60,830 nucleotides of DNA from a virus (IMGVR_UViG_3300025617_000023:1-60830); one strand, 5' to 3'; shown: positions 19,557 through 36,155, counted from the first letter of the stretch. Program-made: numbers and translations. Notes: generated from the sequence alone by a model not told the origin.

Positions 19557-20696
19557 ATGAATAAAGTGTTAGTTATTGGCGATATAATTATTGACAAATA
19601 TATTTACGGAACATCGACACGGTTGAGTCCCGAAGCGCCTGTACCTGTAGTAGCACAAAAACGTGTTGTAGAAACTACAGGCGGTGCAGGACTTGTTTAC
19701 GAAAACTTAAAAAGTCTCGGTGTTGATGTTGAGCTGTTTGAGTATGCATCTAAAAAATGTGTAAAGACTCGCGTTATGTGCGACGGTCACTATGTTACAC
19801 GTATAGATGACGATCACTATGCAGACGGCGTCGAAGTTTGCAACACAATTCTTCGCAACGACTTTAGCAAATACGAGTATGTAATCCTAAGCGATTACAA
19901 CAAAGGTGTATTAGACGAGTCTATTAAGATTATCGAACATCTTAATAAATTTGGATGCCGTGTAATTGTTGATCCTAAGTCACATGCAGAAAACTACGAA
20001 GGTGCATGGTTAGTTAAACCCAACGAAAAGGAATTTCAAGAATACTTCCTTAATTGGCATGGTAATATTATTACAACAAGAGCAGGCAAAAGTGTTGTTG
20101 CTAAGATTGACAATGAAGTTTACGAAGTAGATGTTGACATTGTTGAAGTTAGTGATGTAACTGGTGCTGGAGACTGTTTTCTAGCTGCATTTGTTTATGC
20201 CCTTACAAAAGATTATGATTACAAAAAAGCAATTGAACTAGCAGTTAAAGGCTCACGCAAAAGTGTTCAGCACACGGGCACGTATACGCTTGCTGTAAGC
20301 GACTTGGAAGAAAGAGTAGTGTTTACTAACGGAGTTTTTGATATACTACACAAGGGTCATTTTGAGCTGTTAGCAGAAGCACGAACACTGGGTGAAAAAC
20401 TAATTGTAGGCATTAACAGCGATGCTAGTGTAAAGCGCCTTAAGGGCGAAACACGCCCTGTTAACAACCAAATGAAACGCATCAGTCAATTAGAAATATT
20501 ACCGTGGGTAGATCAAGTAGTTGTGTTTCACGAAGATACACCTTACGAATTAATTAAAGAAATAAAGCCGCATGTTATTGTTAAAGGCGGCGATTACACA
20601 GTAGACGAAGTTGTCGGTCACGACTTAGCAGATGTGCATCTAGTACAAACACAAGAAGGTTATTCAACAACTAGTATTATAGAGGCAAGCAAATGA
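19557..20696 (+). CDS. hldE: HldE, bifunctional heptose-7-P kinase / heptose-1-P adenylyltransferase
   Basis: HldE phosphorylates D-glycero-beta-D-manno-heptose 7-phosphate and later joins heptose 1-phosphate to AMP, making ADP-heptose. The kinase domain (residues 1-250) has VIGDIIIDKYIYG, SPEAPVPVV, the NPNE-like KPNEKEF and the catalytic GAGD at 203-206. The adenylyltransferase (255-379) has FTNGVFDILHKGHFELL, NSDASVKRLKG, RPVN and KGGDY. E. coli HldE is 477 residues; this one is 379, mainly through a shorter kinase and a missing linker, but all key motifs remain. A TTG start at 19542 is possible. The ATG at 19557 is preferred, at the transcript start with no ribosome site, so the message would be leaderless. 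It overlaps hldD by four bases (ATGA). Confidence 0.93.
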   Translation: MNKVLVIGDIIIDKYIYGTSTRLSPEAPVPVVAQKRVVETTGGAGLVYENLKSLGVDVELFEYASKKCVKTRVMCDGHYVTRIDDDHYADGVEVCNTILRNDFSKYEYVILSDYNKGVLDESIKIIEHLNKFGCRVIVDPKSHAENYEGAWLVKPNEKEFQEYFLNWHGNIITTRAGKSVVAKIDNEVYEVDVDIVEVSDVTGAGDCFLAAFVYALTKDYDYKKAIELAVKGSRKSVQHTGTYTLAVSDLEERVVFTNGVFDILHKGHFELLAEARTLGEKLIVGINSDASVKRLKGETRPVNNQMKRISQLEILPWVDQVVVFHEDTPYELIKEIKPHVIVKGGDYTVDEVVGHDLADVHLVQTQEGYSTTSIIEASK

Positions 20697-21511
20697 GAAT
20701 ATTAGTAACAGGTCACGAAGGATTTGTTGGAAAGAATATTGCACACTATCTACAATCACAAGGTCATGAAGTAGAAGGATGGGAATGGGAACCAGGAATA
20801 CTTCCTAGTACAGAAGATTATGACTGGTGCATACACTTAGGTGCAATCAGTAGTACAACATACACAGACGTAAATCAAATACTTGAACAAAATTTTGAGT
20901 TTAGTGTAAGATTAGCACAAGTGTGTGAAAACTTTGGTACTAATTTTCAATATGCAAGTAGTGCAAGCGTATATGGTCCTACTGATCACTTTACAGAGGA
21001 CATGTCATTGTTGCCCCAAAGTCCGTATGCATGGTCAAAATATTTGTTTGACAGATTTATTAATCAGTATATTGACGAATTTCAAATTACGATTCAAGGG
21101 TTTCGCTACTTTAATGTATACGGTCCTAATGAAGAACACAAAGGCGATCAAGCTAGTCCTTACACTAAATTTACACAACAAGCAATAAACAATGGAGTTG
21201 TAAAACTTTTTGAAGATAGCAAAAACTATAAGCGTGATTTTGTTTGTGTAGAAGATATCTGCCGATTACATGATAAAATGATGGGTGTAGATACAAGTGG
21301 CATTTTCAATGCAGGCACAGGCGCTGTTACCAGTTTCGATACAGTGGGTCGTGAAATTGCTAAAAAATATTCTGCAGACGTACAATATATACCGATGCCA
21401 GATAATTTAAAATCACAGTATCAAAAGTATACATGTGCAAACTTAGACAAATTAAATTCTGTAGTAGATATGGAATGGACTAGTATAAAGGATTACATCA
21501 ATGAAAAATGA
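20693..21511 (+). CDS. hldD: HldD, ADP-heptose 6-epimerase
   Basis: This short-chain dehydrogenase-type enzyme converts ADP-D-glycero-D-manno-heptose to the L-glycero form, using NADP. Seen are the Rossmann motif TGHEGFVG (residues 6-13), SSTT, YASSASVYG, the catalytic Y112 and K116 in YAWSK, then GFRYFNVYGPNEEHKG and NYKRDFVCVEDI and the end motif YTCANLDKL. These match E. coli HldD (310 residues) closely and distinguish it from other nucleotide-sugar epimerases. At 272 residues it is compact. Start overlap with hldE and end overlap with the cupin gene (11 bases) show a tight operon. Confidence 0.92.
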   Translation: MRILVTGHEGFVGKNIAHYLQSQGHEVEGWEWEPGILPSTEDYDWCIHLGAISSTTYTDVNQILEQNFEFSVRLAQVCENFGTNFQYASSASVYGPTDHFTEDMSLLPQSPYAWSKYLFDRFINQYIDEFQITIQGFRYFNVYGPNEEHKGDQASPYTKFTQQAINNGVVKLFEDSKNYKRDFVCVEDICRLHDKMMGVDTSGIFNAGTGAVTSFDTVGREIAKKYSADVQYIPMPDNLKSQYQKYTCANLDKLNSVVDMEWTSIKDYINEK

Positions 21512-21923
21512 AGAGCCAACTAGACTAACCGGCGTTGTGCCTAAAGGATGGGGTTATGAATTAATTTGGGCCACTAACGACAAGTATTGTGGTAAAATTA
21601 TGTTCTTTGAAAAGTCTAATGCAAAATTTAGCATGCATTTCCACAAGGAAAAGGACGAAACTTGGTTTGTAAATAATGGACGGTTTAAGGTAAGATGGAT
21701 TGACACCAATGATGCAGTGTTATATGAAAAAGTATTAAAAGAAGGCGATGTTTGGCACAATCCTCCTCTACAACCACATCAGTTAATTTGTTTAGAAGAA
21801 GGTTCTAGTATTACCGAAGTGAGTACTGCTGATAGTGTTGAAGATAATTATCGCGTTGCTCCAGGCGATAGTCAAAAACATCAATACGAGCCTAATTTAA
21901 ATCCAGAAGATCAAGATGATTGA
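21501..21923 (+). CDS. Cupin-domain protein of the ADP-heptose operon
   Basis: The 140-residue protein is a single cupin. WGYELIWATNDKYCGKIMFF leads into SMHFHKEKDETWFVNNG, with the metal ligands H46, H48 and E53, and a later His at PHQL (H93). This resembles stand-alone cupins related to the C-terminal domain of mannose-1-phosphate guanylyltransferase/isomerase. A sugar isomerase or sugar-phosphate-binding role is plausible, and it might replace or assist a missing step in heptose synthesis. The frame overlaps hldD and gmhB on either side, so it is co-translated with them. No isomerase GmhA is present in the window. Function is inferred only from neighbours. Confidence 0.75.
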   Translation: MKNEEPTRLTGVVPKGWGYELIWATNDKYCGKIMFFEKSNAKFSMHFHKEKDETWFVNNGRFKVRWIDTNDAVLYEKVLKEGDVWHNPPLQPHQLICLEEGSSITEVSTADSVEDNYRVAPGDSQKHQYEPNLNPEDQDD

Positions 21924-22539
21924 TATTTACTGGGGAGACGACCAATTATCTTCGCCTGATTATGTTGCACCCAAGTGTGTAATTGGATTAGATAGAGATG
22001 GCGTAATAAATGTTGATCGCGGCACATATACTTGGAAGGGATCTGACTTTGATCCTATTGAAGGCAGTCTAGAAGCAATTGCACGATTGCGCAAGTTAGG
22101 CCACGGAATTGCTATCATAACAAATCAAGGCGGCATCGAAAAAGGATTATTTACTGAAGAAGATGTCGAAGCATTGCATATGTACATGTTAGAATTATTG
22201 GGTAAAGCTGGTTGTCCAAGCATCGATGCCATTTACTATAGTGCAAGTAGTCATAAATCTGATATGTATGCTAAACCCAATACTGGAATGTTCAAACGTT
22301 GCGAAAAAGAACAAAAACATAAAAAAATTAAATTTAATCGCGGATACTATGTGGGTGATAAAATGAGTGATCTCAAAGCTGCCCACAAAATAGGTGCAAA
22401 ACCTGTATTAGTTCGAACCGGTTACGGCTCTGAAACTGAAAAAGAATTAAAGAAGTTTACCTACCGCGACATAAGAAAAAAGACCATCATATTTGATGAT
22501 CTTAAATCTTTCGCAGATTGGATGGAAGCGCAAGTTTAA
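21916..22539 (+). CDS. gmhB: GmhB-like heptose 1,7-bisphosphate phosphatase (HAD family)
   Basis: In heptose synthesis GmhB removes the 7-phosphate between the two HldE steps. The 207-residue protein shows the HAD motifs: LDRDGVIN with nucleophile D26 and acid D28, TNQGGI (about 69-74), Lys in KPNTGM (K120), and VGDKMSDLKAA with D148 and D152. These follow GmhB and histidinol-phosphatase-type enzymes. The zinc-binding Cys/His cluster usual before KPxPGM in GmhB is absent (here SASSHKSDMYAKPNTGM). An extra 20 residues precede the core. It ends the operon, and its stop overlaps the stop of the convergent 2242-residue gene by four bases within a hairpin. Confidence 0.82.
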   Translation: MIDIYWGDDQLSSPDYVAPKCVIGLDRDGVINVDRGTYTWKGSDFDPIEGSLEAIARLRKLGHGIAIITNQGGIEKGLFTEEDVEALHMYMLELLGKAGCPSIDAIYYSASSHKSDMYAKPNTGMFKRCEKEQKHKKIKFNRGYYVGDKMSDLKAAHKIGAKPVLVRTGYGSETEKELKKFTYRDIRKKTIIFDDLKSFADWMEAQV

Positions 22540-22550
22540 GCCTGCGCTTC
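22525..22550. terminator. Inverted repeat at the convergent gene ends
   Basis: GAAGCGCA and its perfect complement flank TTTAA where the stop codons of gmhB and the 2242-residue gene overlap. Both strands therefore carry the same hairpin, coding EAQ near both C-termini. No strong T-run follows, so termination in either direction is possible but unproven. Confidence 0.4.
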
Positions 22551-25500
22551 GCCCCATTTTAGAATCAAGTTACCGTCGATATCAGCGCCACTAATCTTAT
22601 AAACATTAATAGCTAATACATCAGGGCCATTGGGGAACGTCCCTCTGCCTCCCAACGGAGTGTTTGTAAGTTCTTTCAATGCCGATAGATCTAGTGTAGA
22701 ACGTTCACCTGGAGTCGCAATAAACGAGAATACTGTTTCTCCCGGTTGGGCAAATGGTGGTTGAACAAATTCAAATTGAACAGTGCCTGTATTTTGTACT
22801 AATGTTCCACTAAACGTCTGATTGAACGAAACTTTATAATATTCCGTATTCCCAAATTCTTCCAGTGCAATAGAAGAAATTAGTGTACTAGCTGGGAATG
22901 TTACGGACCCGCCTGTTTGTGTAACTGCGGTGCCGGGAATTGCATTTGATGCTAAGAAAGTGTTAACATCTAAATATGCAAAACTTGAGTTGGTCAGTGA
23001 CGTTTGGCGCTGTAGAGTAACTGTTCCGCTTACTGTGCCTGAATACCTACTGTTAAAATACAGTCTATAATATCTACTATTTTGATCGCCTCTTCCCCAC
23101 GGTCCATTTATGAAAGTTATTTGCCTGGGAGTTGAGAAACTTGAATTAGCAGATCCCGACGTTCCCGATACAAAGTCTCCAACCTGAGCACCTGTGCTTT
23201 CAAAGGAAGCTTGTCGAACATCTACATAGCTAGTATTTGATCTATTATAACGTACATCAGCTGTAGTTTCGATATTTGCTTGTGCAGTTGCAGTAGCTGT
23301 AGTAGCAGCATCACCTGTACTCCACTGTGTACCACCGCCCGGAGCAATCTGAGCAAAACTGGGCTGTCCACCTTGAGCAACACCGCTTAGTCCTTGCCAA
23401 CTTACACTTCCTGGATCAATTGGGAAGTTTTGCGGATTCAACACACCTTCAACAATGATGCCGCCTTCGCCTGCTGCGCCAGAAGCTGATGTAATTTCAA
23501 GTCCCTGTAGTAGAAGCTGCGCACGGTTTAGTAGTTCTCTTTCGCCTAAGTCGCCTACAATAGCATTTGACACACTAGGTGATAGTCTAATCATAAATGC
23601 AGTCTGTTTAGTAGTACTAATAGTAACACCAGTTTCAGCATATGAGAAAATGTATCCTCGATCTTCGTCAAATCCGCCGTCTGTAATAAACGCACTACCC
23701 CAGTGACTAATTAATGGCGTAGTAGTTTGAGATATTAGTACCACTCCAGTACTGCTACTATGCGCAGAAGCATCTCCTGCTGTATAACTTCTTACAGATC
23801 CGCCTTGGAAATTTGTAAATACAGCAGATCTTGTGCATCCTGTTAAAGTATTGCCTGTTCTTCCTGTAAAATTAATAATTTCATTGTCTATATAAACAGT
23901 ACCAGATGTCGGGAAAAACTTGCCGTTTTCGCTATCCAAAGGCACAGTAACTTGAGTGCTGTTCATGTCAGCAGCTAGTTTTGCATTAGGACCTTCATTA
24001 GTAACTTCGTAACGAACAGGCAAGTTACCTGATCTCATAAACGCTTCTGTGTTCACGTTTGAGTTACGCATTCTGTGTGCAAATACAAAGTTACCGTCTG
24101 CACCACGTAGCATAAAGTCAATGAAACCAGCACCGTACCAACTGTATTGAATTCCGATCATCTGCATCTTAGCAATGTCAATATCGTATCCGCTAGGTCC
24201 TGTTCCGTCTAATCTATCTAAGTTAAAGTCTGCTTGCTTGGTACGCTTGTCAAACACTAGCATTGCTTTGGCACCAGTAACATTAGATACACCTCTAAAG
24301 TCAGGCGTTACTGTCATATTAGTTTGATCAATAACATGAGACACAACATGTGTCATACCTCTAATAATAATCCTATCGCCAGCTTTAAGTTGATCTCTAA
24401 ATCTAGTATCAGTTCCAGTTACAGCATTTTTGTCAACATCGATTGCAATAGTGCCTGCTACTTGATATGTACCAGTACGTTGTACCACGTTGATCTGTGT
24501 GCCATCGTATTCCCAGAAAATTCCATTTTGATCATCAAAGATACCTGAACGTACAGTGGCGCCGTGCCATCTAACAACACTCATTTGTGCTGCAAAGCCC
24601 AATACCGCTGTTGTTGCGCCAAGTCTGCGTTGAGATAAAACTTTAAATGTACGCTCGTTTACTACTTCAACAACTTCGTAATCAAATTGTGGCGGGACAG
24701 CAGTTTGTGGTCCACTGTTATAGCCAGGAGTGTCTACACCCAATAATCTAATTATTCCGCCAACTTGTACACCGTGATCGTTGTCGTCTGTTGTAATTGT
24801 AATTTCTGATCCAACTTCTACGCCGTCAGCTGTAACACTACGTATATCATAACTTGGAGCAAATAGCGCACCAGTTGTGTACATAATGCCTTTACCTGAC
24901 TGATAACGAATGTACTTTTTACTTTGACGAATTGCTTGCGCACCGTGTTGCGGACCGCCTGTTCCTAGTTGTACGCCGCCGTCAAACGGTCTGTGTATAA
25001 AGAAGCTATCAGGTCTTGGGTATACTGATCCGAGTATCGGATCATTATTATTATCAATATCAATCGATCCCACTGTTCTTGCTTGGAATCGTAACGTTAA
25101 TGTAGACGGTATCTCAGTAGCAATATAAGATCCTGCTGCTAATTCGTGATTGTTTGATCCATCGTCAGAATCAATACTGGTAATAAATGTATCACCCGGA
25201 ACTAATCCGTGTGCTGTTTCAAATTCTGCCTCAATTGTAGCGACAGCACTAAACGTAATCGGAGCCCCTGATACGATTGGCGCCGTTGTTGCTTCCGACA
25301 TCGTTACTGTTGATATTAAATCTATATTTTCTCCAGGTGCTGCTTCTACTGATGATGTAGTAAATGCCGAAATGCCGCCAGTTTCATCAACAGTTGTAAC
25401 ATTTATAAGAATATCATTTAGTGGAGATACTCCGTCAACTACCGAAGCTTCAACTTCTAGTCTGTTTCCTGGTTCATATCCTGAACCAGGATTAGTAATA

Positions 25501-28500
25501 GAAATACTTGAATAATTTCCTGAATTTCTAATTATAGTAAATTCTGCACCTGTACCTAAAGAAGGATTGTTAGTTCCGACAACATCAATATATACACCAA
25601 TAGGAATGTATCCTGTGCCTGATGCTGTAATTGTTTGTATTTCGCCTCCTTCCAAGTCAGTAATTGATGTTATAGTAATCGATAAGTCGTTTTCAGGTGT
25701 CGTGCCTCCGAAAACAGTTCCGGAAATAGTATGTATTTGTCCAACGTTGTACCCTTCTCCAGGTGCTACTAATGTAGCGTTAAATACACCCTCGGGGTTT
25801 TGAGTAACATCAAATGTAGCATCTATCGGAACTCTATTTATACCAGGTATTCCTGATAAAGTGTCTCCATTAAATGTCACACCAACAGCAGTAAACGATG
25901 TAATGGTGCCGTTGGCGTCAACATTATCAATTGTAATTGTTAAATCGTTAGCTGGTGTGGCGCCGCCTAACTGATCGCCTGCAACAGTGATGGTCTCAGT
26001 AGGAACAAAATTTATTCCATTATTTGTAAATATTACTGTATACGAATCGCCTGTAACTTGAACATCAATAACTGCGGCAGAACCACTAGCTGATGTTGTA
26101 GTATATGCAACCCCTGTAAATGTTTTATCTACTTGTGGAGCTGAACCAGCAAATGTAACTGTGTTAATTGCTCCTATAGATTTTACACTACCAATTCTTA
26201 CAGTTGCATCGCCGTTGCCAGTTGATAGTGTTACTACATCAAATTCAGCATACCCTGATCCTGCGTCTACGATTGTAACATCTGTAATAATTCCGTCGCC
26301 GCCTTCAGTAATCGTCAATGTTAGTCCGGTGCCAGAGCCGCCTGTTGTTGCAACAGTAGTGCCACTAGTATAACCAGTACCTCCATCTTGTAATTGTACA
26401 CTAGTTGCCTGTCCACCAGTCGTTTCAACTTCGTCTACAGATATATACAAGATACGTTCTGGTCCGCTATAACCTGGCACCAATACGTCTGCCGCCGCAG
26501 TTAGAACATCGCCGATGGCATAATCTGCACCAGTTTGTGCTGCGGTAACATCAACTGAACTAAAAATTCCATCTTGGAATGAAATATCAAAACCAGCACC
26601 TGCGCCGTTGCCGCCTGTGAATGTTGCAGTTTGCCCTTCTAAAAGAAGATCGTTATCGAAATGCAAACCATTGATAGATGCCACGGCAATTGAATTTGCA
26701 CTGCCTACTTCATCTACAACAATAACTGCATCATTAGCAGGAGTCGCGCCGCCTAACTGAGTACCTAAAATTGTTATTCTGTCTCCTACTTTGTAATTAA
26801 TGCCATCATTTTCGATTGCATCAATCACGTAGGTTAAACTAGAATCTCCTGAATATGATATATCAAACTTAGCACCTGAACCAATTCCAGTATCATTGTC
26901 CGGCTCAACTCCAATATATTCGTTTCTATTGCCTATAATTTCGCGTGTAAAATTGCCATTAAACGTAATTGTATTTCCATCAACAGATGTAATATATATT
27001 GCATTTCCATCTCCACGATCGACTGCTAAATTTTCTACAACACCTGTAATATCTTGCACTGTGATTTGATTTTGACCAGCTGGAATATTACTATTAGATA
27101 ATGGTGTTACAAATGTGCCGCCGCCTTCACTTTGATCGATAATACTTGTTACTTGAGAGCCAACTGGTATACTTGATTGACTTAGAGGCGAGCCAAGTTC
27201 TGGCGCTGAGCCGTCAAATGGTATCACTACTTCGCCGGATAATACGCCTAACTGTGCAAACATTGTTCCAGAACTACCATTACTTGCTATGGTAAATTCT
27301 GGTTGTCCGATAGATGCACCTGTATAAAATCCAGCTTCTCTTAATTGTGTATAACCAGTAGATAAAACTTCTCCTACTGTTGATCCAACTTTTGCTTTTG
27401 CAAAATACTGGAATGTAGTGTTACTAGGAACGTTGACAATAATAAACGTGCCTTCTGCTCTAGAGGCGCCTGCAATACTATTTTCTAATGCTTTAATACT
27501 TATAGGAGTGCCTGCTTCAAAGCCGTGTGCGGCTACAGTACTTACAGTAATTAATGACTGACCAACACCAGACCCTTGATCGTTTGCTAGTACTGTAATT
27601 GTGCCTACCATATTTGCATGAGAACTACATTGGTAAAAATAGGTGCCAGCATCGCCAGGCTGAGTAACCCATATTATTTCTTCTCCGGTATTGCCGCCAT
27701 TGTTAGTAACATTGCTAACTGGATTTGCTGTGCCTGTGCCTTGTATTGTTTTAAAATAAAACGGATGACTACTGTTAGCATTGTTTGTAACAATTAAAGT
27801 ATCACCTTCGATCAACGTAATACTTGGATCATTACCGGTAACGTTGCCATTTCTGTCTTGAGCATTACTCCATACCCAATCATTAGTTCCAGAGTTTGTA
27901 ACATCTGCAGTAAATATTCTAACAGGTTCACTTAAACTTGAATCTGTAACAACTCTGACTACATCAGTATCGGTTCCTGGTATTTCATACACACTAGGAT
28001 ATCCGCGCATTGTGCCTATAGCACTCCATTTTGTAGGCTGTAATCCGTACTCAAAGTCAGCATCGAGCATGGATACAGGCATAGCAGCACGTGGACGTTC
28101 AATAGCATCTGTACCAAAATCAAATGGTCTAGTTCTAACTTCTTTTTCTTCCACAAATATTTGTATGTCATCAGTTGACAAGTGATCACTAGTATCGTAA
28201 TTTAATTTAATAGTCGAGACGCCGTCGGTGGTTTCTTTAAACTTTAAGAAATCTTCATCAATTGTATCCTTAATTTCAATTAATGCGCCTGTATTAACAT
28301 TGGTAAAGTTATATAAAACTTCACTTCGTGTAGAATTTGATATTAATAGCAATTCATCAATACTATAGCGTCCTTGTATTTTAATGGTTCCAACGCCGAC
28401 AGGAACAAGTGTCGGCTGTGCTCCTAAACCATTTGTAATAACATCCACTGTATTAAATGCTAGTGTATTAATTTTAGTAGCAGGGCCCGACGTAACTGAA

Positions 28501-29264
28501 TCCGCCAAGGCACTCGAGAATGTATGCGTACTGGTATCTGAGCTAATTCCTACATTAACTGTAATTGTTGTTGAAGTAGTATCAGTAATAATAAGCGGTG
28601 CATAATAAAACGGATCTTTTCCAGTATCGTTGGGCACTCCTGAAGCTCTTGGATATGGGTGTTCAGTAGCATCGCCATCTAAAGTACATGTAAATGATAT
28701 TCCGCCTGGAGCAATAAAAATTTCGTCTCCTACTGACAACGTGTGTGTGCCAATTGTTACATTCATAACTCCTGTAGTTGGTGTATATGTTGCACCTGTT
28801 GGAGTAAATGTTGATGTTGATTCACTAGCTGTGCCAGTAAGCGTTTGAGACACTTTGGTATTTAAAGCAGAATATGCAACTTGTGCAAGAATATTGTCTT
28901 GAATTAAATTACCGATCCATGTGTGTGTTTGTATTTCTGGTTCACGATCGCCGTCAACCTGTGCTACACCTTGATCCCAATAGTATTTTACTGTATTATA
29001 AAGTTTTTCATTGCCGCCATATCTCAAATCGTTTAAGTATGCATCAATTATATAACCTACATCTCTTTCGCATTTTTCTTGATTGTATGTATACCCTACA
29101 AATCCTGCTGCGTCGGCATCAACTTGAGATTGTATCCATGCTGTAGATTCTTTTTGTATAAACTCTTTGTTAGAGTTTATTAAACTGTAAGCGTTTGGAT
29201 ATCGGTAATCATTCGCTCCAATTCCCGGTTTAAATACATAATTTTTTATTTGCGTCTTTGCCAT
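22536..29264 (-). CDS. Giant modular virion protein with cupredoxin domain, probable tail fibre or baseplate component
   Basis: At 2242 residues this is the largest gene here. Residues 25-120 form a helical module (SNKEFIQKE, KCERDVGYIIDAYL, GGNEK) that recurs in the 1833-residue fibre. Residues about 450-560 are a cupredoxin: GDTLIVTNNANSSHPFYF, then GTYFYQCSSHANMVG. The ligands His, Cys, His and Met are all present, with C-x2-H-x2-M spacing as in amicyanin. Residues 760-1300 hold repeats like GxGYxxGDxxTIxG...GGATPANDxxI. The remaining 900 residues, including FIHRPFDGGVQLGTGGPQHG and DYDID-like parts, match large virion proteins of marine T4-like phages. It is the last gene of the long minus-strand fibre region. 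Confidence 0.75.
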   Translation of the reverse strand: MAKTQIKNYVFKPGIGANDYRYPNAYSLINSNKEFIQKESTAWIQSQVDADAAGFVGYTYNQEKCERDVGYIIDAYLNDLRYGGNEKLYNTVKYYWDQGVAQVDGDREPEIQTHTWIGNLIQDNILAQVAYSALNTKVSQTLTGTASESTSTFTPTGATYTPTTGVMNVTIGTHTLSVGDEIFIAPGGISFTCTLDGDATEHPYPRASGVPNDTGKDPFYYAPLIITDTTSTTITVNVGISSDTSTHTFSSALADSVTSGPATKINTLAFNTVDVITNGLGAQPTLVPVGVGTIKIQGRYSIDELLLISNSTRSEVLYNFTNVNTGALIEIKDTIDEDFLKFKETTDGVSTIKLNYDTSDHLSTDDIQIFVEEKEVRTRPFDFGTDAIERPRAAMPVSMLDADFEYGLQPTKWSAIGTMRGYPSVYEIPGTDTDVVRVVTDSSLSEPVRIFTADVTNSGTNDWVWSNAQDRNGNVTGNDPSITLIEGDTLIVTNNANSSHPFYFKTIQGTGTANPVSNVTNNGGNTGEEIIWVTQPGDAGTYFYQCSSHANMVGTITVLANDQGSGVGQSLITVSTVAAHGFEAGTPISIKALENSIAGASRAEGTFIIVNVPSNTTFQYFAKAKVGSTVGEVLSTGYTQLREAGFYTGASIGQPEFTIASNGSSGTMFAQLGVLSGEVVIPFDGSAPELGSPLSQSSIPVGSQVTSIIDQSEGGGTFVTPLSNSNIPAGQNQITVQDITGVVENLAVDRGDGNAIYITSVDGNTITFNGNFTREIIGNRNEYIGVEPDNDTGIGSGAKFDISYSGDSSLTYVIDAIENDGINYKVGDRITILGTQLGGATPANDAVIVVDEVGSANSIAVASINGLHFDNDLLLEGQTATFTGGNGAGAGFDISFQDGIFSSVDVTAAQTGADYAIGDVLTAAADVLVPGYSGPERILYISVDEVETTGGQATSVQLQDGGTGYTSGTTVATTGGSGTGLTLTITEGGDGIITDVTIVDAGSGYAEFDVVTLSTGNGDATVRIGSVKSIGAINTVTFAGSAPQVDKTFTGVAYTTTSASGSAAVIDVQVTGDSYTVIFTNNGINFVPTETITVAGDQLGGATPANDLTITIDNVDANGTITSFTAVGVTFNGDTLSGIPGINRVPIDATFDVTQNPEGVFNATLVAPGEGYNVGQIHTISGTVFGGTTPENDLSITITSITDLEGGEIQTITASGTGYIPIGVYIDVVGTNNPSLGTGAEFTIIRNSGNYSSISITNPGSGYEPGNRLEVEASVVDGVSPLNDILINVTTVDETGGISAFTTSSVEAAPGENIDLISTVTMSEATTAPIVSGAPITFSAVATIEAEFETAHGLVPGDTFITSIDSDDGSNNHELAAGSYIATEIPSTLTLRFQARTVGSIDIDNNNDPILGSVYPRPDSFFIHRPFDGGVQLGTGGPQHGAQAIRQSKKYIRYQSGKGIMYTTGALFAPSYDIRSVTADGVEVGSEITITTDDNDHGVQVGGIIRLLGVDTPGYNSGPQTAVPPQFDYEVVEVVNERTFKVLSQRRLGATTAVLGFAAQMSVVRWHGATVRSGIFDDQNGIFWEYDGTQINVVQRTGTYQVAGTIAIDVDKNAVTGTDTRFRDQLKAGDRIIIRGMTHVVSHVIDQTNMTVTPDFRGVSNVTGAKAMLVFDKRTKQADFNLDRLDGTGPSGYDIDIAKMQMIGIQYSWYGAGFIDFMLRGADGNFVFAHRMRNSNVNTEAFMRSGNLPVRYEVTNEGPNAKLAADMNSTQVTVPLDSENGKFFPTSGTVYIDNEIINFTGRTGNTLTGCTRSAVFTNFQGGSVRSYTAGDASAHSSSTGVVLISQTTTPLISHWGSAFITDGGFDEDRGYIFSYAETGVTISTTKQTAFMIRLSPSVSNAIVGDLGERELLNRAQLLLQGLEITSASGAAGEGGIIVEGVLNPQNFPIDPGSVSWQGLSGVAQGGQPSFAQIAPGGGTQWSTGDAATTATATAQANIETTADVRYNRSNTSYVDVRQASFESTGAQVGDFVSGTSGSANSSFSTPRQITFINGPWGRGDQNSRYYRLYFNSRYSGTVSGTVTLQRQTSLTNSSFAYLDVNTFLASNAIPGTAVTQTGGSVTFPASTLISSIALEEFGNTEYYKVSFNQTFSGTLVQNTGTVQFEFVQPPFAQPGETVFSFIATPGERSTLDLSALKELTNTPLGGRGTFPNGPDVLAINVYKISGADIDGNLILKWGEAQA

Positions 29265-29267
29265 GTT

Positions 29268-30155
29268 TTATAATCCAAATGCTATTGCTAATGATAGTGC
29301 CGTACTATCCACATACTGCCGATTAGTTACACTAGTATTAGTCACAGGTGTCTGTGTTACTGTTGCTGATGTAAATGCTGCTGCTGCTGGAGCAGTTCCT
29401 CCAATTGCCGTATTGTCTATAGTGCTGTTATTTATTGTAATACTTAATCCAGAAGAATTTAATTCGCCAAGTTTTATATCAGCAACTTGAAGAATTATCT
29501 TGTTTTCTGCATTTAGTTCTAAATTGGTTAATGAACTTAGTTTTGGTATTCCTACTCCGGATAAATTCAGTTCGCCGGCTACATGTAAATCTTTTTCAAT
29601 TCCAACGCCGCCAGCTACAGTAATTGCACCAGTTGTTGCACTAGTTGAGTTAGTTGTAGAGTTAACATCTATTGTACTAAACAGTCCAGTAGGATCAACA
29701 ACATTGATTACTCCAATGTTATTTCTAAGTTCATCTGAATAATATAATGTATCCGGAGCATTTAATGGAACACTCCATCTTAGTACACCGTCTACTTTAA
29801 GTTGTGCATCAGCCCCTTGAGATCCGTCAGAGTGACTTATGCCACTGTTGTACTGTAGTGATTCAAGCTCATTGCCTGTAAGAATTTGAATTTTTAAATC
29901 TGGTATGTCAAGACTGAAACTGTATGTTTCTTGTCTAGAAACTGTAATAGTAGGATTTGGTGCTTCACCTAATTCTGCAATAAAAAAGTCGTTGTCTGCA
30001 TCAGTAACAGTAAAATTTACAAATAAAACTTCATCTGTATCAGCTTCATCTACTGTAGTAATAGATGCAGCAATAATGTTACCTTCAGAATCGACAGAAA
30101 ATCCCGGTCCTTTAAAACCATACTGCGATTCAAATGGCGAGTTTACTATCGGCAT
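29268..30155 (-). CDS. Tail-fibre-like virion protein, 295 residues
   Basis: The protein starts MPIVNSPFESQYGFKGPGFSVD and has a beta-rich N-terminal part. It continues with ATTGAITVAGGVGIEKDLHV, which is the repeated GG-G-I-x-K-x-L-x-V-x-G pattern found in many phage fibre proteins, and LNAENKIILQVADIKLGELN. The C-terminal PVTNTSVTNRQYVDSTALSL resembles the trimerising ends of fibres. The domain order suggests an accessory short fibre or fibre base. It has its own late motif and AGGAG site and lies three bases upstream of the 2242-residue gene, so the two are probably co-expressed. Confidence 0.65.
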   Translation of the reverse strand: MPIVNSPFESQYGFKGPGFSVDSEGNIIAASITTVDEADTDEVLFVNFTVTDADNDFFIAELGEAPNPTITVSRQETYSFSLDIPDLKIQILTGNELESLQYNSGISHSDGSQGADAQLKVDGVLRWSVPLNAPDTLYYSDELRNNIGVINVVDPTGLFSTIDVNSTTNSTSATTGAITVAGGVGIEKDLHVAGELNLSGVGIPKLSSLTNLELNAENKIILQVADIKLGELNSSGLSITINNSTIDNTAIGGTAPAAAAFTSATVTQTPVTNTSVTNRQYVDSTALSLAIAFGL

Positions 30156-30173
30156 TTACATTCTCCTATATGT

Positions 30174-30180
30174 TATTTAT
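30174..30180 (-). promoter_or_regulatory. Late promoter motif of the 295- and 2242-residue genes
   Basis: The minus strand reads AGATAAATAACATATAGGAG, with the ribosome site inside the short leader. Confidence 0.65.
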
Positions 30181-30191
30181 CTGACTACAGT

Positions 30192-30629
30192 TCAGACTAC
30201 TAACGGAGTTTGTGTGTGAAAATATTGTGCAGTATAAATGACCTTTGTTCCTGTAAAGTCTTTTGCAGTGATAGCGTTTTCTAGATCTTCTGCAACAATT
30301 ACAGGATTTAAAATAACATCTACATAACTATTATTTACAGTAGCACTTATTGTAAGAATATCATCAAGTGTATGATTTCTTGCAAATACTACTATACTTG
30401 CACGGTCTTTTGACGCAGTAACTAAAACTTTTATAACTTCTTTATTTTCAACATCATAATCAGCACTTATAGTATACTCTACACTAGAAAATTCTCCTAC
30501 GTGCCATCTGTCTAGTAAAGTATCTGTATGTACTTGTTTCCAAGGACCATTGTGACTAGTCCCTAGATTATTCTTAAATAAAATTGTGTTCTTCAAACCA
30601 TTTGTCAAAAACTTTTTTAAATTTTGCAT
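30192..30629 (-). CDS. Small virion-type protein, 145 residues
   Basis: No firm function. Residues include LTNGLKNTILFKNNLGTSHN, then GPWKQVHTDTLLDRWHVGEF, a strand-rich middle and a final TKVIYTAQYFHTQ. I recall this pattern from small structural proteins of marine T4-like phages, as separate proteins or as a domain of larger ones. It follows the carbamoyltransferase gene, with a late motif overlapping the end of that gene, and precedes the 295-residue fibre gene. Confidence 0.6.
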   Translation of the reverse strand: MQNLKKFLTNGLKNTILFKNNLGTSHNGPWKQVHTDTLLDRWHVGEFSSVEYTISADYDVENKEVIKVLVTASKDRASIVVFARNHTLDDILTISATVNNSYVDVILNPVIVAEDLENAITAKDFTGTKVIYTAQYFHTQTPLVV

Positions 30630-30648
30630 TAACTGCCCCTATTTTTAG

Positions 30649-30655
30649 TATTTAT
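30649..30655 (-). promoter_or_regulatory. Late promoter motif of the 145-residue gene
   Basis: The minus strand reads CGATAAATAC, overlapping the stop of the carbamoyltransferase, with the ATG about 20 bases downstream. Confidence 0.6.
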
Positions 30656-32451
30656 CGGTTTTTGACAGTTATTAACTTATTGTATTCCGGCAAGTATAAG
30701 TATTCAATTTCACTTTCAACAAGTGTACGTACAGCATCGTCCAATGTTTCTACTAATGGCTCCCCGCCTAGATTAAAACTAGTATTGAAAATTATTGGAC
30801 ATCCTGTCTTTTCTTTAAATGCTTTAATAATACTGTAGTAATTTGGATTTTGTTCCTTTGTTACTGTTTGAATACGACATGTTCCATCTACATGTATAAT
30901 TCCTGGTATTTTTTCTTCAATGCCGGGCATACAATTTACAGCATACATCATTGTAGGAGAATTTTTCATTCCTCTTAAATCAAACCATTCGTGTACATCT
31001 TCTTCTAGAATACTTCCTGCAAATGGACGGAAGTATTCTCGATGCTTGACACTGTTAACAAAATCTTTTGCATTATCATCTGTTGGATCATACATAATAC
31101 TTCTATTTCCTAAAGCTCTAGGTCCATTTTCGGATCTGCCTTGAAATAGTGTTACAATGTTCCTATCTACAATTAAATCAACTGCATCTTGTTCTGTTGC
31201 TTCTGAAATTTCAACATTGTATTTTTCAACAACTTCAGTAATATCGTCTTCTGAATAGTTATACTCTGGTCCTAAGTATACATTATCAGCTTGTGGCTTA
31301 ACTTCGATACTCTGTGTATGTTGATGATGCCATATTAGTGCGGCGCCCATTGCAGTACCCGCGTCGTTTGATATAGGCTCTACGTAAATATTGATTCCTT
31401 CGTTTTGGAGTTCTTTTAAATAATAATAGTTAGCAACACAATTTAATCCATATCCGCCACTGATAACTACATTTTTAGATCCACTAATATTTACAGCATG
31501 TCTAATTAAATCCGCAACTGCTTTTTGTGTTTCGGTTTGCACAGCATATGCCATGTCTCTTCTATTTTGTAATAATGTAATATCGCCATCTGTATTATCT
31601 CTTAAATATTCATAAGGTGAAGTATTTACAACTGCTCCGTTTGGATATCTCGGCAATATTGAATTCCTGTTTATCGTAGGAAATGGATAATCATTTTTAT
31701 CAACGATGTTTGGTATTTGATCATTTTCTTTACCGTACGGAAATAGTCCCATTGTTTTGCCGGCTTCGATACTACTCCAGCCGCAGTACTCTGTTACTGC
31801 TTCATAGGACTTAACAATTCCTGCTTTATCTGAAATACTCAAATCAAATTTCGCGCCGGGTTCCCATTCTCCAGCATCAAAGTCTTCAACATAAGCATTT
31901 ACTATCATTTCTCTTGCGCCCATAGTTTTATGTAAAGTTTTGATAGTTGCTGGGTATTCGCATTTATAGATACTTTCAGTTTCATAAACTGTAAGACTAT
32001 CACCGTCGATTGTAATTGGGAAGAATGTCCCAGCACCGTCGACTATAACTGCAACTGCCTCTTCAAAGCCGCTACGATAAAAAGCCATACCTGCATGCAT
32101 CTTGTGGTGATACATTGCCATATCAATAACTTGAGGATGGCGTCCGTATTCGTCAAGCGCCAATTTATCAATTAACCCTACTTTTCTTGCAAGTCCACTG
32201 TAAACATCTTCTCCAGTGTAATCTAGTTTTCCAGCAGTAGCAGACAATGGAGTTGTATGCGAAATACAAAGAAAATCTATTTTATCTGTATACTCTTTAA
32301 TTTTAAGCATACTTGCTAAAGGACCGCCGTCGTATTTTGAACGGGTGAGTCTTTCTTCCTCAATACTGAACACAATTTCGCCGTCTTTTAAAAGACATAC
32401 TCCTGCATTGTGTCCTCTAGCAATACCAGCAATCCACGTATGTTTTTTCAT
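30652..32451 (-). CDS. NodU/CmcH/TobZ-type O-carbamoyltransferase
   Basis: These enzymes move a carbamoyl group from carbamoyl phosphate to a hydroxyl of a sugar or related compound, through carbamoyl-AMP. The N-terminal ASKHA-fold domain has GIARGHNAGVCLLKDG, SIEEERLTR, CISHTTPL and the metal motif HHKMHA at 115-120, then VIVDGAGTFF. The C-terminal domain has FQGRSENGPRALGNRSI and REYFRPFAGSILEED. The order is typical of the family (about 550-610 residues). The start is set at MKKHTW (599 residues) because GAGG lies eight bases upstream. A further in-frame ATG at 32484 would overlap the SGNH gene. It is one base from the SGNH gene and follows the GT9 gene, so all three probably act on the same glycan. 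The acceptor is unknown. Confidence 0.88.
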   Translation of the reverse strand: MKKHTWIAGIARGHNAGVCLLKDGEIVFSIEEERLTRSKYDGGPLASMLKIKEYTDKIDFLCISHTTPLSATAGKLDYTGEDVYSGLARKVGLIDKLALDEYGRHPQVIDMAMYHHKMHAGMAFYRSGFEEAVAVIVDGAGTFFPITIDGDSLTVYETESIYKCEYPATIKTLHKTMGAREMIVNAYVEDFDAGEWEPGAKFDLSISDKAGIVKSYEAVTEYCGWSSIEAGKTMGLFPYGKENDQIPNIVDKNDYPFPTINRNSILPRYPNGAVVNTSPYEYLRDNTDGDITLLQNRRDMAYAVQTETQKAVADLIRHAVNISGSKNVVISGGYGLNCVANYYYLKELQNEGINIYVEPISNDAGTAMGAALIWHHQHTQSIEVKPQADNVYLGPEYNYSEDDITEVVEKYNVEISEATEQDAVDLIVDRNIVTLFQGRSENGPRALGNRSIMYDPTDDNAKDFVNSVKHREYFRPFAGSILEEDVHEWFDLRGMKNSPTMMYAVNCMPGIEEKIPGIIHVDGTCRIQTVTKEQNPNYYSIIKAFKEKTGCPIIFNTSFNLGGEPLVETLDDAVRTLVESEIEYLYLPEYNKLITVKNR

Positions 32452-32452
32452 T

Positions 32453-33322
32453 TTAATATCCTCTATATCTTTTATCGTAAGCATCTAATTCAAACTCTAA
32501 CACGTCACCAAACATTTGTAAATCTGGAATATTCGTTCGAGCTTCTCGGCATATTTCAAGCCATTCTATTTGTTTTAATGTTAATTTATTATTCGGCATA
32601 TTTAAACTCGGCTTAACTACATTATATAACCAATCAATGCCCAAGTTAGGTGACGGATGTGGATCCGTCCAAGTTTTTTTACTTTCACCAACATCCCATG
32701 TATATAACTCTTCTTTATTTTTCCAGGTGTAACATCCTATAGGCTCAAGCCAGTTTGGCTCATTCCATACTTTCTTATAAGGAAGAAATAACTCGTGATC
32801 CCACAAGCTATCAGATGTTAAAGAATTAATTTCTCCGTATCCTCCAGGATTTATTGTAAAATCCGTTCCTAGCTTTTCAAACTCTCCTATACTAGTCATT
32901 TTCCAATTGCATTTTTTAGATTTAACAAGCTCTAGTGTAGAATAAATTGCATTTAAAGACAGCATTATATACGAATTTTCATCGAAAAAAGTGTCTAACC
33001 ATTTTTTATCATACAGTTCTAAATTAGTATAACCAAATATGCTTCCTTTGGTTTTCCATCCGTTTGCTGCATCTCTATCTGTTTCTTCTTTGAACAAATG
33101 ATAATCATGTCTAATATGGCTTGTCCATTGTATAATCACAGTATCTTCATTAGTAATATTATTTTTTACAAAACACTCAGCTACTCTATTAGCAATAGCA
33201 ACATTGCCAATACCCGGGACGCCCCAATTTTCAAAATAATCAAATTCTAATCCAAGAAAATCTGCCCAAGTTGGCCAAGCATAATTAGTAAAACTACATC
33301 CGAATGTAAACAGCCTTGACAT
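32453..33322 (-). CDS. SGNH/GDSL-type hydrolase
   Basis: The 289-residue protein begins TFGCSFTNYAWPTWADFLG, with the block I motif GCSFT (nucleophile S10). Block V appears as DPHPSPNLG near residue 220, giving the Asp and His. A Gly-Asn pair (PGIGNVAIAN, about 36-45) could supply the oxyanion hole. SGNH enzymes are esterases or acyl hydrolases. Phage members remove or shift O-acetyl groups on host polysaccharides. Position between the GT9 and carbamoyltransferase genes (one-base gaps on both sides) suggests trimming of the same sugar. It could instead belong to a surface esterase of the tail. No signal peptide is seen. Confidence 0.72.
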   Translation of the reverse strand: MSRLFTFGCSFTNYAWPTWADFLGLEFDYFENWGVPGIGNVAIANRVAECFVKNNITNEDTVIIQWTSHIRHDYHLFKEETDRDAANGWKTKGSIFGYTNLELYDKKWLDTFFDENSYIMLSLNAIYSTLELVKSKKCNWKMTSIGEFEKLGTDFTINPGGYGEINSLTSDSLWDHELFLPYKKVWNEPNWLEPIGCYTWKNKEELYTWDVGESKKTWTDPHPSPNLGIDWLYNVVKPSLNMPNNKLTLKQIEWLEICREARTNIPDLQMFGDVLEFELDAYDKRYRGY

Positions 33323-33323
33323 A

Positions 33324-34283
33324 TTATTTCTTTTTATCGGCTTTCTTTTTATCAGACATTGAATCTTTTACAGTAGAAATAATAACCTCTTCGACCTTAT
33401 CGTTCATTGCCATAATGCCTTCATTCATTCTGTCTGTATACTCGTCTTGTGTAATACGAATAGGACTGTAAATTCTAGCACCTTCGCCCATATCCAATAC
33501 ATTAAATGGTTTATGATCTGGATACGATACATTTTCTTTAAATGTACTTCCGACGACAACAGTTGCAGGTATATCTAAAGAATATGCTAAATGCTGTCCA
33601 ACACTATCACAACCCAGGAAGTGGTCTGATTGACTAATGATTGCAGTCCATGTTCTTAAATCAATATTTTGCGGGATTGCGATTGGCTGTGTTATTCCAT
33701 GTTTTTGAAATTCAATTGCAATTTCACCCATAAAAATTATAGCATACTCCTTGGATAGTTCTTTAACAAGATTAACAACAGTTTCTGGTTCAAAGCTTCT
33801 TCCACTAAAGTCTGTAATCATTCCATTGTCATTTACAACACCTCGGCCAAACGGTTGAAATACTACAGCTTTATCTTTTCCTGTTTTTTCTTTTACTTCT
33901 CGTACTACTTGTGCTGCGGAAAGTTTTTCTTGCTTGCTTAATCTAATAGTAGGTTTGGGCAAATCTCTTACACCTTTATTGTTTATTTCAATATCGTATG
34001 CTTGTGATAGATTTGCTTTTTGGTTATAATATTCCCAAACTCTGTAAGGTTCTGGACTTACTAGTTCCATATCTTTTAGTTTATCTTCAAACAAGTTTTT
34101 ATGCCACACATCATATGCTTTAGCATGTAAAACCGGGTGTCCTTTGTAAAAATCAGTGCCGCCTTCGCAAACAATAAGGAAGTCGTTGTCTGGATTTTCT
34201 TCGTGAAATTTTTCTAATGCGGGTATAGAGCACACTACTCTTCCTGCGCCGCCATTAATAAAAAATGCTTTATTTCTTGACAT
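33324..34283 (-). CDS. GT9 family heptosyltransferase-like glycosyltransferase
   Basis: GT9 enzymes transfer L-glycero-D-manno-heptose from ADP-heptose, as in lipopolysaccharide core assembly. The protein (319 residues from the ATG at 34283) has an N-terminal GGAGRVVCSIPALE near residues 10-24, where GT9 proteins have their GD-x4-P start. The C-terminal domain has AVVFQPFGRG, FSGRSF, FMGE and, near 226, FLGCDSVGQHLAYSL followed by PATVVVGST, equal to the GxDxGxxHxA donor site. The tail (DKKKADKKK) is basic. The start is set where AGGA lies eight bases upstream, rather than the in-frame ATG at 34349. It leads the three-gene cassette with a late promoter at 34316. ADP-heptose could come from the hldE operon. 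Confidence 0.8.
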   Translation of the reverse strand: MSRNKAFFINGGAGRVVCSIPALEKFHEENPDNDFLIVCEGGTDFYKGHPVLHAKAYDVWHKNLFEDKLKDMELVSPEPYRVWEYYNQKANLSQAYDIEINNKGVRDLPKPTIRLSKQEKLSAAQVVREVKEKTGKDKAVVFQPFGRGVVNDNGMITDFSGRSFEPETVVNLVKELSKEYAIIFMGEIAIEFQKHGITQPIAIPQNIDLRTWTAIISQSDHFLGCDSVGQHLAYSLDIPATVVVGSTFKENVSYPDHKPFNVLDMGEGARIYSPIRITQDEYTDRMNEGIMAMNDKVEEVIISTVKDSMSDKKKADKKK

Positions 34284-34315: not shown

Positions 34316-34322
34316 TATTTAT
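34316..34322 (-). promoter_or_regulatory. Late promoter motif of the GT9-SGNH-carbamoyltransferase cassette
   Basis: The minus strand reads TAATAAATAA, about 33 bases before the GT9 ATG and just past a terminator, so it starts a separate transcript. Confidence 0.6.
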
Positions 34323-34406: not shown

Positions 34407-35372
34407 TTAATCTGGAAGATTATCTAACGCAGAAGAATGCCCGTCTACTCTGTCGACGTTTTCGATAGGATTTCTAATTATTGTAATCTTATGCGGAGCA
34501 ACTGTTGCAATTTTTGACATATCAATTGTTGCACCTGATCCATTGCTAGAGTCTGATGTATAAAACACATTTGTGTACGAACCTGCTTCTTTATGATAGT
34601 TGTAACAGTGTTTCGAAGATGAAGTAAATGCAGTAATTGCTCCGGAGTCATCTACCTCTGAAACAGTAAGTAGAATATCTGCTGCATTAGTATTATTTTT
34701 AAATGCAGGATCTGATAGTAAAATACTGTCTCCTACAGCATATCCAGATCCAGCATTATCCAATGTAATATCCCAAGCGGCACCGCAGGTTGTAGGCAAA
34801 TTTCTCAAATATTTTTTAAACTTAGCTACTTTGTTATATACCGATTCTGGTAAATCTTCTGACAGACTGCGATCCGCATTATTCAATAAATTGTTTCTGT
34901 AGTTAATAAATGTTTCCCAATCCATTATTGGAGCCTTCCAAGGAAACGGTTTAACAAAACTCTCAGTGTCAGGATTATATACTATTTCAGTAACTTCGTA
35001 AACGTGATCTGGCAACATTGGATCATTTCTAACATAAGGAATTGCAGATCCTGGAACTTCTTCGCTAACTGTTGACAGCGTGTCAATATCAAAATTACCG
35101 TCAGCTGGTAGTAGAGCGCAAATTAAAGTTTCTTCATTGCAGTCAATTCTAACAGCATATTGGCCGTCATCTTGATTATTGAATTCACCATTATCCCATT
35201 GTTCTTCTGGAATAGTTGCATTAACCATTTTATTTGTTGTACTATCAAATACCACATATTTGTATGCAGGACCTGAATACGTCATTGTTGCTTTAGTAAG
35301 ATCTACATTGGTTTGCGAATATTGATCGTCGGTTTGGTCGTATGTAAACTCTTTTGTTATATTTGTCATCAT
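34407..35372 (-). CDS. Adhesin partner protein, 321 residues
   Basis: The N-terminus (EFTYDQTDDQYSQTNVDLTK, then YSGPAYKYVVFDSTT) aligns by eye with that of the 215-residue protein at 36931-37578, and so does MDWETFINYRNNLLNNADRS with VTWDDVIDSRNGALTATDGK. A C-terminal insertion carries one copy of the GSGYAVGDSILLSD repeat found in the giant fibres. The final part (HKITIIRNPIENVDRVDG) is unique. The two partner genes alternate with the three Cys/Gly-rich adhesin-like genes. They may be chaperones, connectors or fibre tips for those. No enzyme motif is present. It ends in a terminator, and its start codon is preceded by AGGAA. Confidence 0.6.
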   Translation of the reverse strand: MMTNITKEFTYDQTDDQYSQTNVDLTKATMTYSGPAYKYVVFDSTTNKMVNATIPEEQWDNGEFNNQDDGQYAVRIDCNEETLICALLPADGNFDIDTLSTVSEEVPGSAIPYVRNDPMLPDHVYEVTEIVYNPDTESFVKPFPWKAPIMDWETFINYRNNLLNNADRSLSEDLPESVYNKVAKFKKYLRNLPTTCGAAWDITLDNAGSGYAVGDSILLSDPAFKNNTNAADILLTVSEVDDSGAITAFTSSSKHCYNYHKEAGSYTNVFYTSDSSNGSGATIDMSKIATVAPHKITIIRNPIENVDRVDGHSSALDNLPD

Positions 35373-35381
35373 TGTTTCCTA

Positions 35382-36155
35382 TTAGTAATACACCACATAA
35401 ACCATGCCGCCGCCGCCATGCTCGCCGCCACAACATTGGTTATCGAACTTTGAAGCCGATAGACCGCCGCCTCCTGGGAACATTCCGCAGCCGCAGCCGC
35501 CGTGCCATGATCTGCAACCGCCCGGGCCAGCTCTAAACCCGCCAGCAGTAAATGGAGCATTTGCAGTTACTTGGTATCCGTTTCCGAAACAGTACTGATT
35601 GGGGTGTATACTACCGTTTGTTCCACCTACATGAAAATCTGGTGTTGCGTTGCCGTCGGAGGTGCCGTATGTGCCTAAACAGCAGAAACACATTGAACAA
35701 CAATCATAGCAGTTGCCCATGAAAAAGCAGCGTCTATCGTATGCTGTATTCATACCACCACAAACGCATAGTTTCCAACTTGGACTGCCGCCGCCTCCGT
35801 TTGAACATATGTAAGATGAACAGCCGCAGCATCCACATTGCCAACTAGGATCAGTACATCTTCCTGAGCTTGCTGCACAGATTGTAAATGTATCTCCTGG
35901 ATTTACGCTAACACTTTTAATAGCGTAACCGCCACTGCCTGCGCCTGGGCCTTGTTGACAACAACATACTCCTGCACCACTGCCGCCTCCGCTCCATATT
36001 TCAAATACTGCGTAGCTTTTTCCTGTTGGCACAGTCCACAAGCAACAGCATCCACCATTTGAACTACTTCTACTGCTGTTCCAAACACTGAATTCTCCTG
36101 GCTCAATAGGTGCGCCTTCTTCATATCCGAATAAATAATCTCTTAAATTTGCCAT
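35382..36155 (-). CDS. Cys- and Gly-rich adhesin-like virion protein (copy 1)
   Basis: The 257-residue protein holds about 28 Cys and long Gly runs. It starts with LRDYLFGYEEG, followed by NGGCCCLWTVPTGKSYAVFEI, GGGSGAGVCCC and GGYAIKSVSVNPGDTFTICAA, then patches such as CGCCGCSSYIC and a Gly-rich end. Two paralogues lie beside it (36168-36926 and 37590-38339) with the same opening and the same GGCCCLWT-like motif. Glycine-rich, loop-heavy proteins form receptor-binding tips in T-even phages (gp38 adhesins), so a receptor-binding role is plausible. Cysteines may form disulfides after release into oxidising water, or bind metal. No signal peptide or membrane segment is seen. It lies ten bases upstream of the 321-residue partner. 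Confidence 0.65.
   Translation of the reverse strand: MANLRDYLFGYEEGAPIEPGEFSVWNSSRSSSNGGCCCLWTVPTGKSYAVFEIWSGGGSGAGVCCCQQGPGAGSGGYAIKSVSVNPGDTFTICAASSGRCTDPSWQCGCCGCSSYICSNGGGGSPSWKLCVCGGMNTAYDRRCFFMGNCYDCCSMCFCCLGTYGTSDGNATPDFHVGGTNGSIHPNQYCFGNGYQVTANAPFTAGGFRAGPGGCRSWHGGCGCGMFPGGGGLSASKFDNQCCGGEHGGGGMVYVVYY

Follow-up and report, generated by a model that had tools for sequence, protein, structure and literature searches.

A GT9-fold glycosyltransferase and carbamoyltransferase operon paired with Gly/Cys-rich adhesin genes in T4-like phages, and its possible role in the decoration of tail adhesins

T4-like phages that carry genes for ADP-heptose together with a putative heptosyltransferase and an O-carbamoyltransferase (CBT) raise the question of which molecule receives the sugar. 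Sugar genes of cyanophages are usually filed as LPS genes, their use is unclear, and they have even been considered possible "stuffer DNA" (Sullivan et al. 2010, PMC3037559). The sequence-only reading of the DNA analysed here proposed a phage system that makes, transfers and carbamoylates heptose, and offered host LPS and the neighbouring adhesins as alternative acceptors. We examined this proposal in the window, a marine T4-like phage fragment of 60.8 kb (IMG/VR record IMGVR_UViG_3300025617_000023:1-60830), and in its relatives.

Heptose genes and their link to the GT9-CBT operon

All ORFs named in the earlier reading were present at the positions given there, and the plus-strand operon (19557-22539) also contains a cupin gene that had been left out, giving the order HldE, HldD, cupin, GmhB (Table 1). 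The minus-strand operon (34283-30652) has the order GT9, SGNH, CBT. The intervals between GT9 and SGNH and between SGNH and CBT are each one base, as had been claimed, when the start of CBT is placed at the downstream ATG (32451). The large tail gene encodes a virion protein that showed a weak plastocyanin/azurin-like match at residues ~478-558 (E=0.012, below the Pfam cut-off).

Table 1. Features of the two operons and of the adjoining adhesin region in the window.
Position	Strand	Feature	Basis or remark
19557..20696	+	HldE-like: D-glycero-D-manno-heptose-7-P kinase (shortened, ~245 aa) fused to heptose-1-P adenylyltransferase	domains, GAGD and HxGH motifs
20693..21511	+	HldD-like ADP-heptose 6-epimerase	NCBIfam, PDB match
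21501..21923	+	Cupin (phrog_7851); candidate sugar-phosphate isomerase that may stand in for GmhA (hypothesis)	invariant HxH-E-H set
21916..22539	+	GmhB-like heptose bisphosphate 7-phosphatase	beta type is the best score
22536-29264		Large tail gene	between heptose genes and CBT-GT9
30652..32451	-	TobZ/NodU-type O-carbamoyltransferase (CBT)	ORF could begin at 32484
32453..33322	-	SGNH-fold hydrolase/acyltransferase	invariant Ser10 and His222
33324..34283	-	GT9-fold glycosyltransferase (phrog_8954), putative heptosyltransferase	invariant R15 at the WaaC D13 position
34316..34322	-	ATAAATA, T4 late-promoter-like element	32 bp upstream of GT9
34407..35372	-	phrog_9740-family protein (tail-fibre-assembly-like)	companion of adhesins
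35382..36155	-	Gly/Cys-rich adhesin 1; proposed acceptor	10.9% Cys; phrog_4205
36168..36926	-	Gly/Cys-rich adhesin 2; proposed acceptor	7.5% Cys; Gly_rich_2 above cut-off
36931..37578	-	Second phrog_9740-family protein	tail-fibre-assembly PHROG matches
37590..38339	-	Gly/Cys-rich adhesin 3; proposed acceptor	8.4% Cys

The HldE protein has PfkB and cytidylyltransferase domains, and its top NCBIfam model was HldE (2.6e-84). The HldD protein matched TIGR02197 (2.1e-67), with 1eq2 as the closest PDB chain, and the GmhB protein was recognized at 3.2e-40, with 4pnh as the closest chain. The best matches of all three are true ADP-heptose enzymes, at scores under the NCBIfam curated equivalog cut-offs. 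The Tyr, Lys and Ser that we take to be the catalytic residues of E. coli HldD align with the window protein. The kinase domain of HldE (19557-20290) falls short of its bacterial counterparts by about 70 residues, and in cyanophages the kinase and the adenylyltransferase are separate genes in the reversed order.

The kinase, adenylyltransferase, phosphatase and epimerase of the proposed pathway are present. For the isomerase GmhA, gmhA was found in 0 of 44 relatives and on none of the phage contigs of G046. T4-GC 306 is annotated as "phosphoheptose isomerase" in many cyanophages, but these short proteins (L081:17916-18239, L083:18027-18371) match HAD phosphatases (EcbF-BcbF) and not GmhA. The cupin is favoured as a substitute for GmhA by its general linkage to HldD, which it adjoins in 80 of 81 loci, and by its lyxose-isomerase-like matches. 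The genome of its closest bacterial relative has gmhA, and the 2 kb locus there contains no heptose genes; we therefore hypothesize only that the cupin may replace GmhA.

In the cyanophages S-CAM1, S-SSM7 and P-SSM2, a single cassette has the order GT9, CBT, adenylyltransferase, kinase, HAD phosphatase, cupin and epimerase, sometimes with extra genes between, and S-CAM3 and Sf-FS3 agree in the parts read. In many metagenomic relatives the heptose genes and CBT-GT9 face each other without an intervening tail gene, whereas in the window type the large tail gene separates them. Among 14 terminase-chosen contigs, GT9 and a strong HldD match were both found in 6, neither in 8, and one alone in 0 (p=3e-4; short contigs can miss both). 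Strict co-occurrence was rejected, since exceptions occur in both directions. The operon lacked an HldD match in G021, G022 and G026-G028 (G022 and G027 were read gene by gene), and freshwater-type relatives have kept the operon and the adhesins with the heptose genes absent. Conversely, heptose genes occurred without GT9 in G036, S-T4, P-TIM68, Sf-CH8 and S-SM2. The survey of relatives thus supports the view that the heptose genes and GT9-CBT belong together, as the sequence-only reading had supposed, but the coupling is not strict.

The GT9 protein and its operon partners

The GT9 protein had no Pfam or NCBIfam match by sequence, and its sole PHROG match has no assigned function. Searches of PDB sequences with GT9 and SGNH gave nothing useful, and therefore we used fold comparison for both. 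The AlphaFold model of GT9 (68 sequences; pLDDT 94.6, pTM 0.91) had 3tov (GT9), WaaC, TibC and WaaF as its top Foldseek matches. Comparison with a bacterial GT9 profile by hhalign gave 96% (E=1.5e-9), and the combined matches of a 68%-identical relative reached 22.2 bits against the PF01075 cut-off of 22. The GT9 assignment rests on the predicted structure, with the profile comparison and this relative in support.

The position of WaaC D13 and TibC D110, presumed to be the catalytic base, is occupied by R15, and Arg stands there in 68 of 68 aligned homologues. The donor-site pair of WaaC, D261/H266, corresponds to D226/H231, which is invariant in the alignment, and WaaC K192 corresponds to the invariant R162, as read from a gapped region. 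With R15 in place of the Asp and D226/H231 kept, the model and the alignment indicate a GT9-fold enzyme with an altered catalytic centre. This partly touches a condition that the sequence-only reading had set against itself, a donor pocket clearly built for another nucleotide sugar: the donor-side motif is conserved, but the catalytic Asp is an invariant Arg. We therefore only propose ADP-heptose as the donor, on the basis of the genomic context.

The altered residue leads to an alternative, namely that the enzyme modifies the adhesins with another donor or another chemistry while the heptose genes feed something else. Besides the change of Asp to Arg, the phages that have only the operon or only the heptose genes agree with it. 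However, the contiguous cassette in five named cyanophages, the perfect co-occurrence in the terminase-chosen set and the invariance of the nucleotide-site pair D226/H231 speak against it, and relatives without heptose genes could draw on ADP-heptose of the host. We consider this alternative unlikely.

The bacterial context of GT9 was not usable, as the relatives sit in MAGs and two long contigs resemble mis-binned phage. These two, PBPT01000016 (335 kb, L309) and PBPT01000082 (153 kb, L311), belong to a Neomarinimicrobiota MAG, contain the GT9 gene of the phage type and resemble T4-like phage; similar matches were seen in MAGs labelled Euryarchaeota, Actinomycetota and Flavobacteriales. Two GT9 copies flank one carbamoyltransferase in some relatives (L067, L075, L119-L126).

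The predicted structure supports the SGNH fold, with modest TM-scores (~0.4); the catalytic Ser10 and His222 are invariant, and the canonical Asp has a different position. Searching the named phages with SGNH by tblastn gave no match. Two tandem SGNH genes lie between GT9 and CBT in L042, L048-L052 and L056. The longer CBT ORF (30652-32484) matched both Carbam_trans Pfam domains and carries the catalytic motifs HxxxH, VDG, NDxG, GPRALGNRS and RIQ, some of which vary among relatives. In cyanophages (L361, L363, L364, L082), the CBT and adhesin genes have 2OG-Fe(II) oxygenases in their vicinity. Some of these are labelled prolyl 4-hydroxylase or leprecan-like, and a further modification of the adhesins by the oxygenases is possible.

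Of the 18 ATAAATA elements on the minus strand of the window, 12 precede a minus-strand start by 5-60 bp, for which ~3.7% of positions qualify; the element 32 bp before GT9 is one of them. An element within 110 nt of GT9 is kept in 30 of 97 relatives, as compared to 7% in shuffles. An overall excess of such elements was rejected (23 found, 25.5 expected); the enrichment is only in the position upstream of starts. Late expression fits decoration of the virion and is no proof of it.

Pairing of the operon with Gly/Cys-rich adhesins

The tightest partner of GT9-CBT was a family of Gly/Cys-rich adhesins with 8-11% Cys. With an iterated Gly-rich profile, a Gly/Cys-rich protein was found at 68 of 68 distinct GT9 loci for which 7.5 kb or more of sequence upstream was available. 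Such a profile could drift, and therefore the pairing was rechecked in other ways. Of the 62 loci whose upstream sequence was long enough, 61 have an ORF of at least 150 aa with at least 4% Cys no more than 8 kb from GT9, at a median distance of 1.9 kb, and among GT9-negative relatives 0 of 454 ORFs combined at least 4% Cys with at least 7% Gly. When loci were picked by the adhesin alone, GT9 was present in 71 of 77, and the remaining six contigs end within ~2 kb past the adhesin. A fixed-alignment adhesin profile applied to 61 records matched 35 of 43 GT9-positive and 0 of 18 GT9-negative records (p=1.2e-9). The P-SSM2 adhesin gave 22 matches in 50,697 phage records, of which 21 were GT9-positive and the remaining one was another contig from the same single cell; in these records the match lists of adhesin and GT9 are nearly identical. 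As many of the compared contigs are fragments and mutually related, these counts are not independent events.

In AG-345-O18 and P14, which have GT9 and no homologue of the adhesin, unrelated proteins with 9-11% Cys adjoin GT9. S-CAM8 and P-RSM4, which are GT9-negative cyanophages, have a CBT relative beside a Gly-rich, Cys-poor protein. A distant GT9 homologue of a Vibrio phage (27% identity), which likewise has the Arg, lacks a Cys-rich neighbour, and this protein as a query against viral contigs returned nothing. A tblastn search of the named phages with the window adhesin gave no match.

What the operon may decorate

Taken together, we think it rather probable that the operon, expressed late, decorates the Gly/Cys-rich tail adhesins of the virion with heptose or carbamoyl-heptose by use of phage-made ADP-heptose. 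The operon almost always adjoins Cys-rich adhesin genes, and therefore its target is probably the phage's own adhesins, not the host surface. The gene identities and folds, the conserved operon, the near-obligate pairing and the late-promoter-like element are the computed basis of this proposal, and we suggest the following donor, order of steps and benefit. HldE, HldD and GmhB of the phage would produce ADP-heptose, the first step being supplied possibly by the cupin in place of GmhA and otherwise by the host; relatives without heptose genes would take ADP-heptose from the host. GT9, SGNH and CBT would be expressed late together with the tail genes. GT9 would then move heptose onto the adhesins, CBT would carbamoylate the adhesin-borne sugar, and SGNH would trim or acylate it. 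The outcome would be chemically decorated receptor-binding tips, and the phage would benefit from a change in receptor binding or from a protected adhesin.

As the acceptor residue, Cys is an attractive candidate and Ser/Thr the conservative one. We speculate that the GT9-like enzymes may be S-glycosyltransferases that heptosylate Cys thiols of the adhesins, CBT then giving S-linked carbamoyl-heptose at the receptor-binding tips, although we give this idea a low probability. Since thiols are more acidic, such a reaction would not require the catalytic Asp. The Cys-richness common to otherwise unrelated GT9 neighbours (O18, P14 and G006 types) and the Arg at the base position in every aligned homologue point in this direction, whereas the Vibrio homologue has Arg without a Cys-rich neighbour. 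If true, this linkage would be a new protein modification.

The other acceptor proposed earlier was the host surface, where carbamoylated heptose on LPS would block superinfection or the loss of progeny to cell debris. O-carbamoylated heptose is known in Pseudomonas LPS cores (WapO; PMC8005017), the best fold matches of GT9 include WaaC and WaaF, and heptose genes also lie within large sugar clusters of GT9-negative cyanophages such as S-T4, P-TIM68 and S-SM2. The co-occurrence of T4-GC 304, 305, 307 and 308 was already noted in 2010, and they were classed as LPS genes (PMC3037559). However, the operon follows Cys-rich adhesins more tightly than it follows the heptose genes, and its immediate surroundings showed no membrane-targeting, ligase or flippase partner. 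In addition, heptose is absent from the LPS of marine Synechococcus (PMC4515613), yet phages of this host carry the cassette. Thus, the Cys-rich pairing favours the neighbouring adhesins, and host LPS seems an improbable acceptor.

Tail-fibre regions are hotspots of gene exchange, and therefore genes may travel together without acting on each other; that adhesin and modification genes merely share a swapped hotspot agrees with the hyper-variability of the region and with the inverted orientation that the operon has in G022 and G027 compared with the adjacent genes, but it is very doubtful in view of the near one-to-one presence across distant genera, the Cys-richness of all the differing adhesin types and the Gly-rich, Cys-poor adhesins of GT9-negative phages.

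Decoration of the adhesins has partial counterparts in known systems. TibC is a protein heptosyltransferase using ADP-heptose (PMC4358343), and like the TibC/AAH autotransporter heptosyltransferases the window enzyme has a GT9 fold and a gene beside an adhesin gene, making an ADP-heptose donor and a protein acceptor plausible. Unlike them, it has Arg for Asp110, its proposed acceptor is a Gly/Cys-rich phage adhesin and not a beta-helix autotransporter, and a carbamoyltransferase is added; no autotransporter gene was seen. With WaaC/WaaF and WapO it shares the fold and the combination of heptose and O-carbamoylation, but the phage operon lies in a tail-fibre region, lacks the catalytic Asp13 and LPS-core partners, and is tightly linked to adhesins. 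The cyanophage "LPS" clusters (T4-GC 302-308; PMC3037559) contain orthologous genes and, unlike the window, are not split by a tail gene. Mycobacteriophages glycosylate their own virion proteins, namely capsid and tail-tube subunits (Freeman et al. 2023, as cited in PMC12619734), whereas here receptor-binding adhesins are the predicted targets, with heptose and carbamoyl. In their Gly-rich composition and predicted receptor-binding role, the adhesins resemble the tail-fibre tips of T2/S16-type gp38, but contain 8-11% Cys.

The cyanophage clusters, TibC-type protein heptosylation, carbamoylated heptose of Pseudomonas LPS and virion glycosylation are thus known. With respect to the open-access literature, three points seem to be new: the near-obligate link to Cys-rich adhesins, the assignment of T4-GC 302 to GT9, and the loss of the catalytic Asp. 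The first two were not found in the available text of Sullivan et al. 2010 (PMC3037559). The pairing makes the sugar genes of cyanophages, which are abundant marine phages, a testable system for the modification of receptor-binding proteins. If true, this would bear on the evolution of host range and would add a route of protein heptosylation and carbamoylation outside bacteria.
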